A DNA stretch of 64,000 bases from Pseudonocardia sp. SCN 73-27 (lineage in GTDB: Bacteria > Actinomycetota > Actinomycetes > Mycobacteriales > Pseudonocardiaceae). The first letter of the stretch is position 1, and each line of letters opens with the position of its first letter. Below are positions 31,892 to 36,066 of this stretch, one piece after another. A program made the position numbers and the translations under genes. Under the pieces are notes generated by a model, which saw nothing but the letters and a program-made list of their open reading frames with translations, ran no database searches and had not been told where the DNA came from. The DNA is taken from NCBI GenBank assembly GCA_001725415.1, contig MEGH01000018.1:26503-90502 (forward strand), given 5' to 3'.

Positions 31892-33217
31892 TTAACAGTT
31901 CGGACTACCGCTCGTCGCTCTCTGCTCACCGCTGATCGCCCGGTTTTCTGGTAGCGACGGGCCGCTGGTCCCGGATGGCGGCCGCCCGGCCGGAGCAACG
32001 GTGACTGCGCCTTGCGGGGCAGCGGCGATGTCGGCGCGCAGCTGCGCGGGGACGGTGGGGGCGTCGAGGAGCCGCCGGTACCGGGCGACGGGGCCGGTTC
32101 CGGCGGCGAGCCAGGTCCGCACGAGGGCCTCACCCTCGACGTAGGCGGTGGTGTAGCCGCGCCATCGGGGGTCGACGACGAAGCGCAGCAGCGTGTGGGC
32201 GCGGGTGTCGTCGACGAGGAGCCAGCGGCGCAGGTGCGCGGCGGCGTCGTCGAGCGGGCGGCCGCGGTCGTGGAGCATGAGGGCTGCGTCCTGCCGGACG
32301 GGCGCGAGGTCGCGCAGGGCGGCCTCGACGGCCTGGGAGAGCTGCCCGTCGCTGCGGATCCCGGTGTCGGCGAGGACGTCGGCGACCCAGATGCCCCACC
32401 CGGGTCCGGCGACGACCTCGAGGCCGGTGTCGGCGGCGCCTTCGGTGACGAGGCTGTGCGGCGAGGGGGTGACGACGATGTCGCGTTCCGGTTCGCCGGG
32501 TCTGCGGATGCCGCGGACGAGACAGTGTTCGGTGTGATGGCCGGGATAGGTCTCGTGGGCGACGAGGGCGGCGAGCTGGGTGGCGCGCAGGCCGGCGTCG
32601 GCGGTGATGCGGACGTGGGAGCGGAGTCCGCCGAGGTGGCGGGTGAGGCCGGTCCATGGCTGGTCGTGGACGAGCTCGAGGTCGACGTACTCGTCGTCGG
32701 GGAGGCCGTAGGTCGTGCGGGTGCGGTCGCGGAGGGCGGCGAGGAGGGTGTCGACGGCGGCGCCGATCCGGTCGGCCGGCACGGTCTCGCGGCGGCGGAA
32801 GGCGGCGAGGCGCCCGGCCAGGTCGCCGTGGCCGGGCAGGAGGGTGTCGAGCCTGGTGTGGGCGTCGCGGTAGCGGTCCTCGGCGGGTTCGACGCCGTCG
32901 AGGTCGACGTCGAGGGTGGCGCGGACGTGGTCGACGAACCCTATGTGCTCGCCCGCGGCTCGCCGCGCGTGACAGTGCAGGGCCGCCAGCTGGGCATCGA
33001 GCAGCCTCGTGCGGGTGACGTCGAGGCCTGCGTCGTGCAGCCGATGGCTCAGCCGGGTGGCGGTGCGGACGAGATCGACCGGGTCGGGGGTGGGGCCGTC
33101 GAGCGCATGCCTGCGTAGTGCCTGGTCACCGGTCCAGGTGTCGACGACCCCCGGGACGAGCCGGTCGAGTCTCAGCGCGAGCAACACGTAGTCACGAGGG
33201 ACCAGGCTCGGCAGCAT
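31892..33217 (-). CDS. DUF885-like zinc metallopeptidase relative
   Basis: 441-residue protein with an [11 protein letters not shown] motif near the centre ([22 protein letters not shown]), the HExxPGHxxE pattern of DUF885 and thermostable carboxypeptidase relatives. A later [13 protein letters not shown] segment provides a possible third metal ligand. There is no signal peptide, so a cytoplasmic peptidase-like role is inferred. The ATG at 33217 gives a normal start; the open frame runs 27 codons further without conservation. The last 40 residues are Pro/Ser/Gly-rich and probably disordered. Divergent from the chaplin-like cluster. Confidence 0.72.
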
Positions 33218-33383
33218 CGCCGCACCGTACGCGCAACCGACGGGTGACGGCGGGGCGTCGCGTAACCGGGCTGGAACTACACAGCGTGTACCCGGCAAAG
33301 GTTACTGGTCCGTTCGTGGGTAACGCATTGACTCTGTGTATCGAGACCTGCCACAGAACCGGACTCGAGCGCCTCACAAGTAC

Positions 33384-33560
33384 ACTCGATCGAGTGCGTA
33401 ACTAAACGTTAAGTACTTGCGTCACACGATAGTGGTACGGAAGTTGGTGTATGGGAAGGCGGCGGATAGCTTTTCCTCAGTCAGCGCGGGCTCCCCGGTC
33501 GGGCGTTGACACGGACGGCGTCGGCTTCGGTCGACACCAGAAGACCAACAGGAGATAAAC
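33384..33560 (+). promoter_or_regulatory. promoter/leader module of chaplin-like gene 1
   Basis: First of three related control blocks, within a 343-base AT-richer intergenic region (33218-33560). Elements in order: palindrome ACTCGATCGAGT (33384-33395), CGTAAC (33397-33402), a copy of the ACACGAT...GTAC box (33424-33438), GTTG-N14-GGCGGATA (33443-33468), and a leader stem CAGCGC/GCGTTG (33482-33508) around a CTCCCC loop. The ribosome site CAGGAG precedes GTG. CGTAAC resembles the -35 of sigma-BldN, which drives chaplin and rodlin genes in Streptomyces; the GCCGATA-like box resembles sigma-WhiG -10 sites. Promoter assignment is inferred. Confidence 0.55.
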
Positions 33561-33947
33561 GTGCTGAAGAAGGCTGGAATCGTCGCGGCCACCGCCACCG
33601 CGGGCCTGCTCGCGGTCAGCCCCCTCGCCTTCGCCGGCGAGGCCGGCCACGGCCACGGCGGTCACCACCACGGTGGCGCCGACCAGGTGAACTCCAACAA
33701 GGAGATCCACCAGGGTCTGGTCAACGTCTCGGACAACAACATCAACGTCCCGGTCACCGCGTGCGGCAACGACCTGCCGATCAACGTGCTGGGCGTCCAG
33801 GTCTCGGACGTCACCGCCGACCTGACCGGTGCCCTGGGCATCCTGGGTGGCGCTGACGCCAAGAGCAAGGCCGACCAGTCGCAGGACCGCTCCTGTGGCG
33901 TGGCCGCGGCCGCCGGCGACACCTCGTCGCAGAGCAACGACGACTGA
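33561..33947 (+). CDS. chaplin/rodlin-like small secreted protein 1
   Basis: 128-residue secreted protein. The signal peptide begins MLKKAGIVAATATAG and cleaves near AFA-GE (residue 25/26). A His/Gly-rich stretch GHGHGGHHHGG (residues 30-39) follows, then a conserved core QVNSNKEIHQGLVNVSDNN, VPVTACGNDLPINVLGVQV and a tail rich in Ala/Ser/Asp. Cys68 and Cys112 are shared by all three paralogues and could form a disulfide. The VPVTACGNxLPINV block recalls the VPVNVCGN...V core of chaplins, and the MLKK start recalls rodlins; both coat aerial hyphae and spores. Assignment to either family is tentative. This copy has the longest His tract. Confidence 0.7.
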   Translation: MLKKAGIVAATATAGLLAVSPLAFAGEAGHGHGGHHHGGADQVNSNKEIHQGLVNVSDNNINVPVTACGNDLPINVLGVQVSDVTADLTGALGILGGADAKSKADQSQDRSCGVAAAAGDTSSQSNDD

Positions 33948-33964
33948 GCTCTCCCTGCTCGGTA

Positions 33965-34000
33965 CGAAGGGCCCCGGACGATTTCGTCCGGGGCCCTTCG
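33965..34000 (+). terminator. terminator of chaplin-like gene 1
   Basis: 16-bp perfect stem (CGAAGGGCCCCGGACG and complement) with loop ATTT, 17 bases after the stop. It lacks a strong T-run, as is common in actinobacteria. Confidence 0.85.
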
Positions 34001-34070
34001 TCTATGCCCGCCGAACATTCGCGACGGCCACCTCCAGAATTGCCATGGTCGAGTTCACTCGAACGTGGGA

Positions 34071-34233
34071 CGTAACCCCGTGAGCAACACGTCAATTACA
34101 CGATCGGGTTACTCGGTTTGGCTCTCACGTACGGGGCCGATACATTTTCAACAGTCAGCACGGCTCCCCCGTCAGGTGCTGGCAACGTCCAGGAATCGGA
34201 TTTCCGGTTCCAGATGACCAACAGGAGATAAAC
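34071..34233 (+). promoter_or_regulatory. promoter/leader module of chaplin-like gene 2
   Basis: Second control block: CGTAAC (34071-34076), 13 bases, then CGTCAATT followed by ACACGATCGGGTTAC (34098-34112), GTTT-N16-GCCGATA (34116-34142), then the leader hairpin CAGCAC...GTGCTG (34156-34181) with a GGCTCCCCCGTCAG loop, and CCAACAGGAGATAAAC before GTG. The 23 bases from 34090 to 34112 are identical to the block of gene 3. The ACTCGATCGAGT palindrome is degenerate here. Confidence 0.55.
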
Positions 34234-34599
34234 GTGCTGAAGAAGGCTGGAATCATCGCGGCCACCGCGACCGCGGGCCTGCTCGCGGTTTCCCCGCTCG
34301 CCTTCGCGACGGAGGGCCACCACGGCCACGGCGACCAGGTCAACTCCAACGAGGAGCTGCACCAGGGTCTCGTGAACGTGTCTGACAACAACGTCAACGT
34401 TCCCGTCACCGCCTGCGGCAACAACCTGCCGATCAACGTGGCCGGTGTCCAGGTCTCCGACATCACCGCCGACCTGACCGGTGCCCTGGGCCTCCTGGGC
34501 GGCTCGGCCGACGCCGCGTCGAAGGCCGACCAGTCGCAGGACCGTGGTTGCGACGTCGCGGCTGCCGCCGGCGACACCTCGTCGCAGAGCAACGACTGA
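34234..34599 (+). CDS. chaplin/rodlin-like small secreted protein 2
   Basis: 121-residue paralogue of the protein at 33561, with the same signal peptide (MLKKAGIIAATATAG, cleavage near AFA-TE), a shorter His tract EGHHGHGD, the core VNVPVTACGNNLPINVAGVQ, a leucine/glycine-rich LTGALGLLGGSAD segment and the second cysteine in DRGCDVAAAAGD. The protein ends QSND, one residue shorter than copy 1. It lies 286 bases after gene 1 with its own promoter block and terminator, so the copies can be regulated separately. Confidence 0.7.
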   Translation: MLKKAGIIAATATAGLLAVSPLAFATEGHHGHGDQVNSNEELHQGLVNVSDNNVNVPVTACGNNLPINVAGVQVSDITADLTGALGLLGGSADAASKADQSQDRGCDVAAAAGDTSSQSND

Positions 34600-34615
34600 G
34601 CTTCTTAGCTCAGCA

Positions 34616-34650
34616 CGTAGGGCCCCGGACGATTCGTCCGGGGCCCTACG
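34616..34650 (+). terminator. terminator of chaplin-like gene 2
   Basis: 16-bp perfect stem CGTAGGGCCCCGGACG with loop ATT, beginning 16 bases after the stop. Compared with terminator 1 the A-T pair at stem position 3 is flipped (T-A), a compensated change showing that the hairpin is conserved as a structure. Confidence 0.85.
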
Positions 34651-34690
34651 TCTGTCCGAGCCACGTTTCGCTCGGGGTGTGAAATACACA

Positions 34691-34864
34691 CGATCGAGTG
34701 CGTAACCCGACGTCCGGCGCGTCAATTACACGATCGGGTTACGGAGTTTGGTTCGGACCCGATATGCCGGATAGGTTTTTCTCAGCCAGCACGGCTCCCC
34801 CGTCAGGTGCTGGCACGTGTCAGGAATCGGCCCAGGCCGTTCCACAGACCAACAGGAGATAACT
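34691..34864 (+). promoter_or_regulatory. promoter/leader module of chaplin-like gene 3
   Basis: Third control block: CGATCGAGTG (34691-34700) next to CGTAAC (34701-34706), 13 bases, then CGTCAATT and ACACGATCGGGTTAC (34728-34742), GTTT-N16-GCCGGATA (34746-34773), and leader hairpin CAGCAC...GTGCTG (34787-34812). CCAACAGGAGATAACT precedes the GTG start. Order and spacing match the blocks of genes 1 and 2. Confidence 0.55.
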
Positions 34865-35203
34865 GTGCTGAAGAAGGTCGGAATCGTCGCGGCCACCGCC
34901 ACCGCGGGCATGCTCGCGGTCGCCCCGCTCGCCTTCGCCCACGGTGGCGACCAGGTCAACTCCAACAAGGAGCTGCACCAGGGCCTCGTCAACGTCTCGG
35001 ACAACAACGTCAACGCGCCGGTCACGGCCTGTGGCAACAACCTGCCGATCAACGGCCTGCTCGCCGTCCAGGTCTCGGACGTCGTCGCGGACCTGACCGG
35101 TGCCGCGAACGGCAACGCGGCGTCCCTGGCCGACCAGTCGCAGGACCGCTCCTGCGACGTGGCCGCCGCCGCCGGCGACACCTCGGCTCAGAGCAACGAC
35201 TGA
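34865..35203 (+). CDS. chaplin/rodlin-like small secreted protein 3
   Basis: 112-residue third paralogue, starting VLKKVGIVAATATAG with cleavage near AFA-HG. The His-rich tract is almost lost (AHGGDQ). The core is VNAPVTACGNNLPINGLLAVQV, with one extra residue relative to copies 1 and 2. The Gly-rich LTGALGLLGG segment is replaced by the shorter LTGAANGNAASL, and the second cysteine is in DRSCDVAAAAGD. The GTG at 34865 was chosen because the ribosome site and the MLKK-type start match the other two copies; an in-frame upstream start at 34817 lies inside the leader. Confidence 0.7.
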   Translation: MLKKVGIVAATATAGMLAVAPLAFAHGGDQVNSNKELHQGLVNVSDNNVNAPVTACGNNLPINGLLAVQVSDVVADLTGAANGNAASLADQSQDRSCDVAAAAGDTSAQSND

Positions 35204-35229
35204 GCTCTTCCGCTCAGCGCCTGACGCGG

Positions 35230-35261
35230 AATGGCGCCGGACCTTCGGGTCCGGCGCCATT
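35230..35261 (+). terminator. terminator of chaplin-like gene 3
   Basis: 14-bp stem AATGGCGCCGGACC with a stable TTCG tetraloop, followed by TTT. It differs in sequence from terminators 1 and 2. It also lies just beyond the 3' end of the convergent uppS gene. Confidence 0.88.
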
Positions 35262-35298: not shown

Positions 35299-36066
35299 TC
35301 AGGAGCCGAAACGGCGGTGCCGCGCGGCGTAGTCACGCAATGCGCGCAGGAAGTCGACGCGTCGGAACTCGGGCCAGTACGCCTCACAGAACCAGAACTC
35401 CGAATGCGCGGACTGCCACAGCAGGAAGCCCGAGAGCCGTTGCTCTCCCGAGGTCCTGATGATCAGGTCGGGGTCGGGCTGGCCGGAGGTGTAGAGGTGC
35501 GCGGCGATGTGGTCGACGTCGAGGACGTCGGCCAGCTCCTCGATGGACGTCCCCGACTCGGCGTGCTGCAGCAGGAGCTTGCGGACGGCGTCGGCGATCT
35601 CCTGGCGGCCGCCGTAGCCGACCGCGACGTTGACCTGCAGGCCCGTGCGTCCGACGGTCCGCGAGGTGGCTGCGGCCAGCCGTGACCCGATCTCGGTGGG
35701 CAGCAGTTCGAGCGCGCCGACGACGCGCAGCTGCCACGGCCGTCCCGGTGCGGCGAGGTCGTCGACGACGTCGGCGATGATCCCGAGCAGGGGCTCGAGC
35801 TCGTCGGCGGCGCGGCTGAGGTTGTCGGTGGAGAGCAGGAAGAGGGTGACGACCTCGACGTCGGCCTCACGGCACCATTCGAGCAGGTCGCCGATCTTGG
35901 CGGCGCCGACGCGGTGCCCGTCGTTGACGTCGACGAGGCCGGCGTCGCGGGCCCAGCGGCGGTTGCCGTCGAGCATGAGGGCTACGTGACGTGGCCGTTC
36001 CGCGCTCTCGAGCCGCCGCGTCAGGCTGCGTTCGTAGAGCGAGTAGAGGAGGTCGCGCACGCCCAC
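35299..36066 (-). CDS. uppS: isoprenyl (cis-prenyl) diphosphate synthase, Rv1086-like
   Basis: 255-residue cis-prenyltransferase that condenses IPP onto an allylic diphosphate. Motifs: MLDGNRRWA (catalytic Asp33), FLLSTDNLSR, QVNVAVGYGGRQEI, PDPDLIIRTSGEQRLSGFLLWQS and EFWFCEAYWPEF. In M. tuberculosis the gene beside hemolysin III (Rv1085c) is Rv1086, which makes short-chain Z,E-farnesyl diphosphate for decaprenyl phosphate synthesis; the same neighbour here suggests the same product, though chain length cannot be read by eye. Divergent from the hemolysin III gene. Confidence 0.93.
   Translation of the reverse strand: MGVRDLLYSLYERSLTRRLESAERPRHVALMLDGNRRWARDAGLVDVNDGHRVGAAKIGDLLEWCREADVEVVTLFLLSTDNLSRAADELEPLLGIIADVVDDLAAPGRPWQLRVVGALELLPTEIGSRLAAATSRTVGRTGLQVNVAVGYGGRQEIADAVRKLLLQHAESGTSIEELADVLDVDHIAAHLYTSGQPDPDLIIRTSGEQRLSGFLLWQSAHSEFWFCEAYWPEFRRVDFLRALRDYAARHRRFGS

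Follow-up and report, generated by a model that had tools for sequence, protein, structure and literature searches.

A tandem array of three cassettes

The window analysed here is a stretch of 64,000 nucleotides (nt) from Pseudonocardia sp. SCN 73-27 (contig MEGH01000018.1). Positions 33,384 to 35,261 of the window hold three tandem genes for small proteins with the look of secreted ones. All three are intact open reading frames (ORFs) on the forward strand (Table 1), as an earlier reading of the letters alone, the sequence-only reading, had described. Each starts with GTG, preceded by an identical AGGAGATAA site, and the products are 83-88% identical to one another. They share a 25-residue start that by inspection follows the KK / hydrophobic / AFA pattern of a signal peptide, and two invariant cysteines (C68 and C112 in copy 1 numbering). 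Cleavage at AFA would leave mature proteins of 87-103 residues, which would be exported from the cell.

Each copy has its own upstream box, promoter-like pair, two-hairpin leader, ribosome-binding site and terminator-like hairpin. Direct repeats span the leader, the ORF and the 3' region, so that the repeated unit exceeds the ORF; whole cassettes are duplicated, as had been proposed. Nucleotide identity between pairs of copies is 65-70% in the upstream block, 77-84% in the leader, 89-92% in the signal peptide, 85-87% in the mature part and 74-87% in the 3' region. Codon differences fall predominantly at third positions, and the ratio of nonsynonymous to synonymous substitution rates (dN/dS) is 0.19-0.52 (nine pairs), indicating that the three ORFs are real, translated and constrained. 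The terminator claimed for each copy is present as a terminator-like hairpin, but it has no T tract, and for that reason the three hairpins are missing from the list of a rho-independent consensus scan. A protein search of the strain's own genome found no fourth copy at an expect value (E) of 0.1 or below, the only extra match (E 0.18) being at chance level, and a search for a plasmid relative of copy 2 gave none.

The core VPVTACGN, earlier thought common to the three proteins, reads APVTACGN in copy 3. The CGN core is constant across the copies while the His-rich segment shrinks, from HGHGGHHHGG in copy 1 to a single His at the mature start of copy 3; longer His runs occur in the P. sulfidoxydans locus. 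Such runs, and weak matches of one member each to families with His-rich stretches, CbtB, DmeF and UreE among them, might mark extracellular metal-binding proteins in which the His-rich segment is the working part. We regard this as very unlikely, given that the segment dwindles to one residue beside an unchanged core.

Table 1. Features of the three-gene module and its neighbours (window coordinates)
Feature	Position	Strand	Remarks
Copy 1 upstream box	33422..33437	+	TCACACGATAGTGGTA, BldM-like
Copy 1 promoter-like pair	33444..33472	+	TTGGTG - 17 nt - TAGCTT; proposed from conservation
Copy 1 leader hairpin 1	33480..33510	+	with GCTCCCC
Copy 1 leader hairpin 2	33517..33538	+	
Copy 1 ribosome-binding site	33550..33554	+	AGGAG; from sequence
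Copy 1 ORF	33561..33947	+	chaplin-like, signal peptide, 128 residues; mature part opens His-rich
Copy 1 terminator-like hairpin	33964..34001	+	perfect stem of 18 base pairs
Copy 2 upstream box	34096..34111	+	TTACACGATCGGGTTA
Copy 2 promoter-like pair	34118..34146	+	TTGGCT - 17 nt - TACATT; inferred
Copy 2 leader hairpin 1	34154..34183	+	
Copy 2 leader hairpin 2	34192..34211	+	
Copy 2 ORF	34234..34599	+	chaplin-like, signal peptide, 121 residues
Copy 2 terminator-like hairpin	34615..34651	+	perfect stem of 18 base pairs
Copy 3 upstream box	34726..34741	+	TTACACGATCGGGTTA
Copy 3 promoter-like pair	34748..34777	+	TTGGTT - 18 nt - TAGGTT; inferred
Copy 3 leader hairpin 1	34785..34814	+	
Copy 3 leader hairpin 2	34823..34843	+	single-sequence fold only
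Copy 3 ORF	34865..35203	+	chaplin-like, signal peptide, 112 residues; His-rich stretch nearly gone
Copy 3 terminator-like hairpin	35230..35261	+	perfect stem of 14 base pairs
Left neighbour, conserved	31892..33298	-	no Pfam family at E ≤ 0.001
Right neighbour, conserved	35299..36066	-	undecaprenyl diphosphate synthase family (uppS-like, PF01255)

Relationship to chaplins and rodlins

No Pfam or NCBIfam model reached its cut-off for the window proteins and no solved structure matched them in sequence; a strong match to an unrelated family, which the sequence-only reading had said would count against it, arose in none of these searches. Sub-threshold matches to GldM, HIG_1, CbtB, DmeF and the like were set aside as noise.

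Signal peptides were stripped before profile-profile comparison, because matches of a 24-sequence family model to chaplins had included the signal peptide. The profiles held 45 sequences of the whole family, 17 of the genus, the 3 of the window and 17 chaplins. The family-wide mature profile scores 33.6 against chaplins, compared with 11.3 ± 2.7 for shuffles (maximum 22.0, 0/200 reaching the score) and 18.0 for the reversed profile. The genus-only profile scores 36.9 (shuffle maximum 23.2, 0/120; reversed 22.7) and the window-only profile 26.3 (shuffle maximum 21.4, 0/120; reversed 21.3), so that the chaplin resemblance noted earlier is borne out in the mature part. When nine chaplins of the group designated f18 are added to the chaplin set the family-wide score is 36.5, and with those nine alone 36.7 (0/150 each), both biased upward because the nine were picked through genome matches of the family model. 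The alignment is confined to a single short core that surrounds the first cysteine, NVNVPVxxCGNxxxxV (NVSDNNVNVPVTACGNNLPI against NVVQVPVHVPVNVCGNTVNV).

A hidden Markov model (HMM) of the mature family domain was run with hmmsearch on 4,866 ORFs (4,458 distinct), a set enriched in chaplins because its loci were fetched by chaplin or family models. In loci taken as non-family it gave 69 matches at E ≤ 0.05. Sixty-two of these (46 distinct, 31 of them in loci fetched with PF03777) are chaplins by the chaplin HMM, four are ORFs that repeat the family's own domain (L104, L105, L130, L131), and three are window genes re-fetched as L129; the last two groups amount to 6 distinct ORFs. The 24-sequence model matched 26 of 197 genomes from the class, and these 26 include 21 of the 23 with PF03777 at E ≤ 1e-8. 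Conversely, PF03777 matches 6 of the 24 family members at E ≤ 1 (best 2.6e-4). These comparisons suggest common ancestry of the domain core with chaplins, for the short core only.

Several results weigh against a chaplin relationship. The match covers only 18-36 columns, and reversed chaplin profiles score 16.7-22.7, near the shuffle maxima, leaving the window-only profile at 26.3 against 21.3. For the window proteins the Pfam chaplin model gives no match at E ≤ 10, and the chaplin HMM finds copy 3 at E = 0.4 and copies 1 and 2 not at E ≤ 1. Under another hhalign setting the family-wide probability is 44, and of the 81 distinct chaplin ORFs the family HMM recovers only 46. The window proteins are also hydrophilic when mature: their grand average of hydropathy (GRAVY) is -0.28 to -0.42, whereas the 17 chaplins average +0.51 (rodlins, -0.16). 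The short alignment, the biased composition, the reversed scores and the hydrophilic remainder would all fit convergence of a short Val/Asn-rich secreted segment, with no common descent. We consider convergence improbable, since shuffles of the chaplin columns never reach the score in five comparisons (0/200, 0/150, 0/150, 0/120, 0/120) and the f18 chaplins share the MLKK-type signal peptide.

Like the short type (ChpD-H) of the chaplins (PF03777, ChpA-C), the window proteins are small, single-domain proteins with a signal peptide, two cysteines and a V-VPV--CGN---V core, present in multiple copies per genome, and no sorting signal was seen in them. Unlike short chaplins they are longer, acidic or His-rich and hydrophilic overall, they have neither the SPGVLSGN start nor the LNPAFGN end, and they fall below the Pfam chaplin model; the earlier judgement that they do not fit that family cleanly was right. 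The f18 chaplins (L106-L108, L112-L114, L122) resemble the window family in their MLKK or VLKK signal peptide and CGN-I-[IVL][LI]G core. They differ in that their chaplin domain is short and opens with SGNG or SGKG, and six of their seven genomes are PF03777 matches at E ≤ 1e-8. These MLKK/VLKK chaplins, three of which lie in L122, appear intermediate between the Streptomyces type and the present family.

PF03777 passes its cut-off in 68 of 150 Pseudonocardiaceae genomes; it is found at E ≤ 0.01 in none of seven Pseudonocardia genomes, and in the strain's own genome it stays below the cut-off. Among the matches listed, those in Pseudonocardiaceae (L054-L072) lie mostly in open frames some 1,000 residues long, and one (L057) is a 514-residue frame with an LAQTG-like sorting signal, as in long chaplins.

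The sequence-only reading had also seen a likeness to rodlins. With RdlA and RdlB the window proteins do share an MLKK-type start, two cysteines, comparable hydropathy and a similar mature length (102-110 residues in rodlins). They differ in that the NKPC and QQCxENSTQ motifs are absent from all three and no profile match rises above shuffles. Against rodlins taken from chaplin-bearing loci, the window-only profile scores 11.2 (reached by 50/80 shuffles) and the genus-only profile 9.8 (54/80). We therefore dropped a rodlin relationship of the window proteins; the MLKK start is not diagnostic of rodlins, because the f18 chaplins have it too. The family-wide profile scores 25.8 against rodlins (0/200 shuffles, maximum 24.8; 0/300, maximum 21.0; reversed rodlin profile 22.2), and because the genus and window profiles are null, any rodlin link rests on members from other genera, some of which carry a rodlin-like VPIQD...VPILS...C. 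Chaplins compared directly with rodlins gave a score reached by 28/200 and 7/150 shuffles. A rodlin model matches one of 150 Pseudonocardiaceae genomes and none of seven from Pseudonocardia. In one Pseudonocardiaceae genome (G114, locus L166) a 223-residue frame holds a rodlin-like segment, NKPCIGLPEKVN...QHQQC. On these comparisons the window proteins are neither PF03777 chaplins nor rodlins, and would represent a divergent branch of the chaplin superfamily.

Upstream box, leader RNA and predicted role

A conserved 16-nt box, approximately TCAC[AC]C[GA]ATNG[TG]GT[TA]A, lies immediately 5' of the TTGG / TANNTT pair of each copy. A scan with the sigma-70 consensus found no promoter, and the copy 1 pair is likewise unlisted. 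The pattern TYACMCGATNGNGKTA occurs three times genome-wide, always preceding these genes; since it was drawn from these sites, the count shows rarity only. A box matrix built from Pseudonocardia and Actinomycetospora sites was scored on 41 upstreams of other loci against base shuffles. It found the box at p ≤ 0.005 in 19, and 18 of these sites are placed 119-143 nt from the start codon, 13 of them outside the genus Pseudonocardia.

The box resembles the BldM group I palindrome of Streptomyces development, TCACcCgnncGgGTGA (PMC4125116). The palindrome has on average 4.48 mismatches to 75 upstreams, which are not independent because the genes are related; permuted palindromes average 6.02 and 0/150 are as low. 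These figures make BldM a lead, and three others tell against it: the box falls short of p ≤ 0.005 in 22 of the 41 other upstreams, every upstream has at least three mismatches to the full BldM consensus, and BldM-like matches are commonplace in the window, at 9 with 10.6 expected. The box may instead be a site of another regulator (BldD, MtrA-like, GlnR, CRP or WhiA), for which patterns were counted in the upstreams without a permutation control.

The leader carries GCTCCCC in 24 of 30 upstreams examined, the exceptions being L042, L047, L048, both leaders of L051 and one of the eight in L045. Hairpin 1 was aligned from 21 of the 24 (16 distinct; L041_1817, L045_6897 and L045_9360 omitted), so that the invariance of GCTCCCC in the alignment is by selection. 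In these leaders 98.2% of cells are paired, compared with at most 51.5% in slid registers. The hairpin covaries: its score is 0.405 against 0.238 (equalled by 0/500 shuffles) and both sides change in four of seven pairs (reached by 16/500), though kinship alone can lift sequences above such shuffles, structure or not; further pair types number six, which is not above shuffles (425/500). Pairing in hairpin 2 was counted on 14 of 24 leaders, a count biased upward because the arms were delimited manually, with bulged or unclear cases excluded.

A covariance model finds only the three leaders at E ≤ 0.1 in the strain's own genome. In 100 genomes, with 68 first-look candidates scored per genome, it gives 49 places at that threshold: 38 outside the genus, all at E > 0.001, and 11 within it, of which nine lie directly 5' of family genes. 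Both remaining places are in G050 (E 0.019 and 0.054) and fit no listed family gene; two of the six family matches in that genome are absent from the family-gene listing. Counting against the reading preferred below, the leader goes undetected before many genus copies (7 genes and 2 leader matches in G082, 6 and 4 in G050, 3 and 2 in G004). No Rfam family exceeded its gathering score, and a known RNA family was ruled out as the leader's identity on that basis. The CUCC of the leader loop could pair with the GGAG of the ribosome site.

Our preferred reading, which we think fairly probable, is that the module comprises three tandem genes for small Sec-exported surface proteins of a divergent chaplin-superfamily branch that is widespread in Pseudonocardiaceae and probably developmentally expressed. 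The promoter would be activated by a BldM-like developmental regulator that binds immediately 5' of the -35 element, transcription would start about 75-85 nt 5' of the GTG, and the two-hairpin leader would set the stability or translation of the mRNA. On the hyphal surface the Val/Asn-rich core around CGN may assemble in beta form, held by a disulfide that the two invariant cysteines probably form, with the acidic and His-rich ends exposed. Having several copies would increase the dose and supply variants, as in the chaplin sets of Streptomyces. The hydrophilic mature proteins might instead serve attachment or general envelope coating and not aerial growth, while still descending from chaplins; according to a review (PMC4255298), chaplins have a part in attachment as well, and a rod-coccus that forms no aerial growth possesses them. 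We hold this to be unlikely in view of the conserved upstream box, which resembles the site of a developmental regulator. A bolder reading strikes us as rather doubtful. On it the family, with its rodlin-like members in other genera, would unite chaplins and rodlins in one actinobacterial sheath superfamily. In Pseudonocardia it would replace both, controlled by a BldM-type switch together with a novel leader RNA of two hairpins, in which the GCUCCCC loop could pair with the Shine-Dalgarno sequence.

Spread, age and setting of the family

With a three-sequence model, 68 of 150 Pseudonocardiaceae genomes yield relatives (E ≤ 0.01). The 24-sequence model finds them in 108 of the 150 and in 36 of 46 genera (E ≤ 0.001), a count that may include some chaplins, since this model detects chaplins too. 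The proposal of a distinct class in Pseudonocardia-like actinomycetes thus holds in substance, with a spread wider than supposed. Six of seven Pseudonocardia genomes have the family; the seventh (G104, 96% complete) is without it, which counts against the preferred reading. Exactly two cysteines occur in 41 of the 45 mature family sequences and four in the other four.

Many Pseudonocardiaceae form aerial hyphae. A literature search, in which subscription papers lay mostly outside coverage, found no description of the family. About 100 actinobacterial genomes were surveyed in 2013 (PMC4255298), those of Saccharomonospora, Saccharopolyspora, Amycolatopsis and Actinosynnema included. The chaplin-like proteins named in the consulted passages of that survey all belong to other groups, and the obvious rodlins named there all belong to streptomycetes. 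That gap would close with a divergent branch of chaplins spread over 36 of the 46 genera sampled.

P. sulfidoxydans (L036) and Pseudonocardia sp. N23 (L038) each have counterparts of all three copies, arranged in the same order, and P. dioxanivorans (L037) has two at the corresponding place. The protein tree has a well-supported copy-3 clade (100/99) and a weak copy-2 clade (80/93) and leaves type 1 without resolution; in the nucleotide tree the type 1 genes of the window, L036 and L038 cluster (0.871). From the ordered counterparts and the clades, the triplication is most likely older than the split of these species. A separate tandem pair is present in P. acidicola (L040; 100/100).

The neighbours of the module are uppS (PF01255) and genes for a PhoH/PIN protein, a protein with no Pfam family and a member of the hemolysin-III family. 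A uppS homolog is present in 23 of the 46 family loci inspected, many of which have a flank of only about 1.5 kb; homologs of the left-hand genes are present in many, Actinomycetospora included. None of loci L053-L132 and L166 (re-fetched own loci aside), where the flank is often short, has these neighbours. The family often sits as a variable array adjoining uppS. Its gene number varies, with 11 matches in one genus genome (G139) and eight genes in the P. lacus array. The locus beside uppS would be a defined target for gene deletion, and the candidate developmental box and leader RNA would be directly testable.

The P. lacus array (L045:5001-9707) occupies the same locus; its eight MLKK-type secreted genes keep the signal peptide, and seven keep GCTCCCC in the leader, while the mature bodies are of another type. 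Such an array could be one of diversifying secreted antagonists or signals, in which leader and signal peptide are conserved and bodies vary. We give this very little credence for the window copies, which are under purifying selection and have chaplin similarity.

In L104 and L105 (family f14) a single ORF holds three tandem copies of the family's mature domain. Seven Actinomycetospora loci (L042, L043, L044, L046, L048, L049, L050), of which the two with leaders examined (L042, L048) are without GCTCCCC there, have MLKK-type His-rich proteins at the corresponding place, with duplicated NNTN-QAPINQLG-LS segments in five of the seven (all but L048 and L049).

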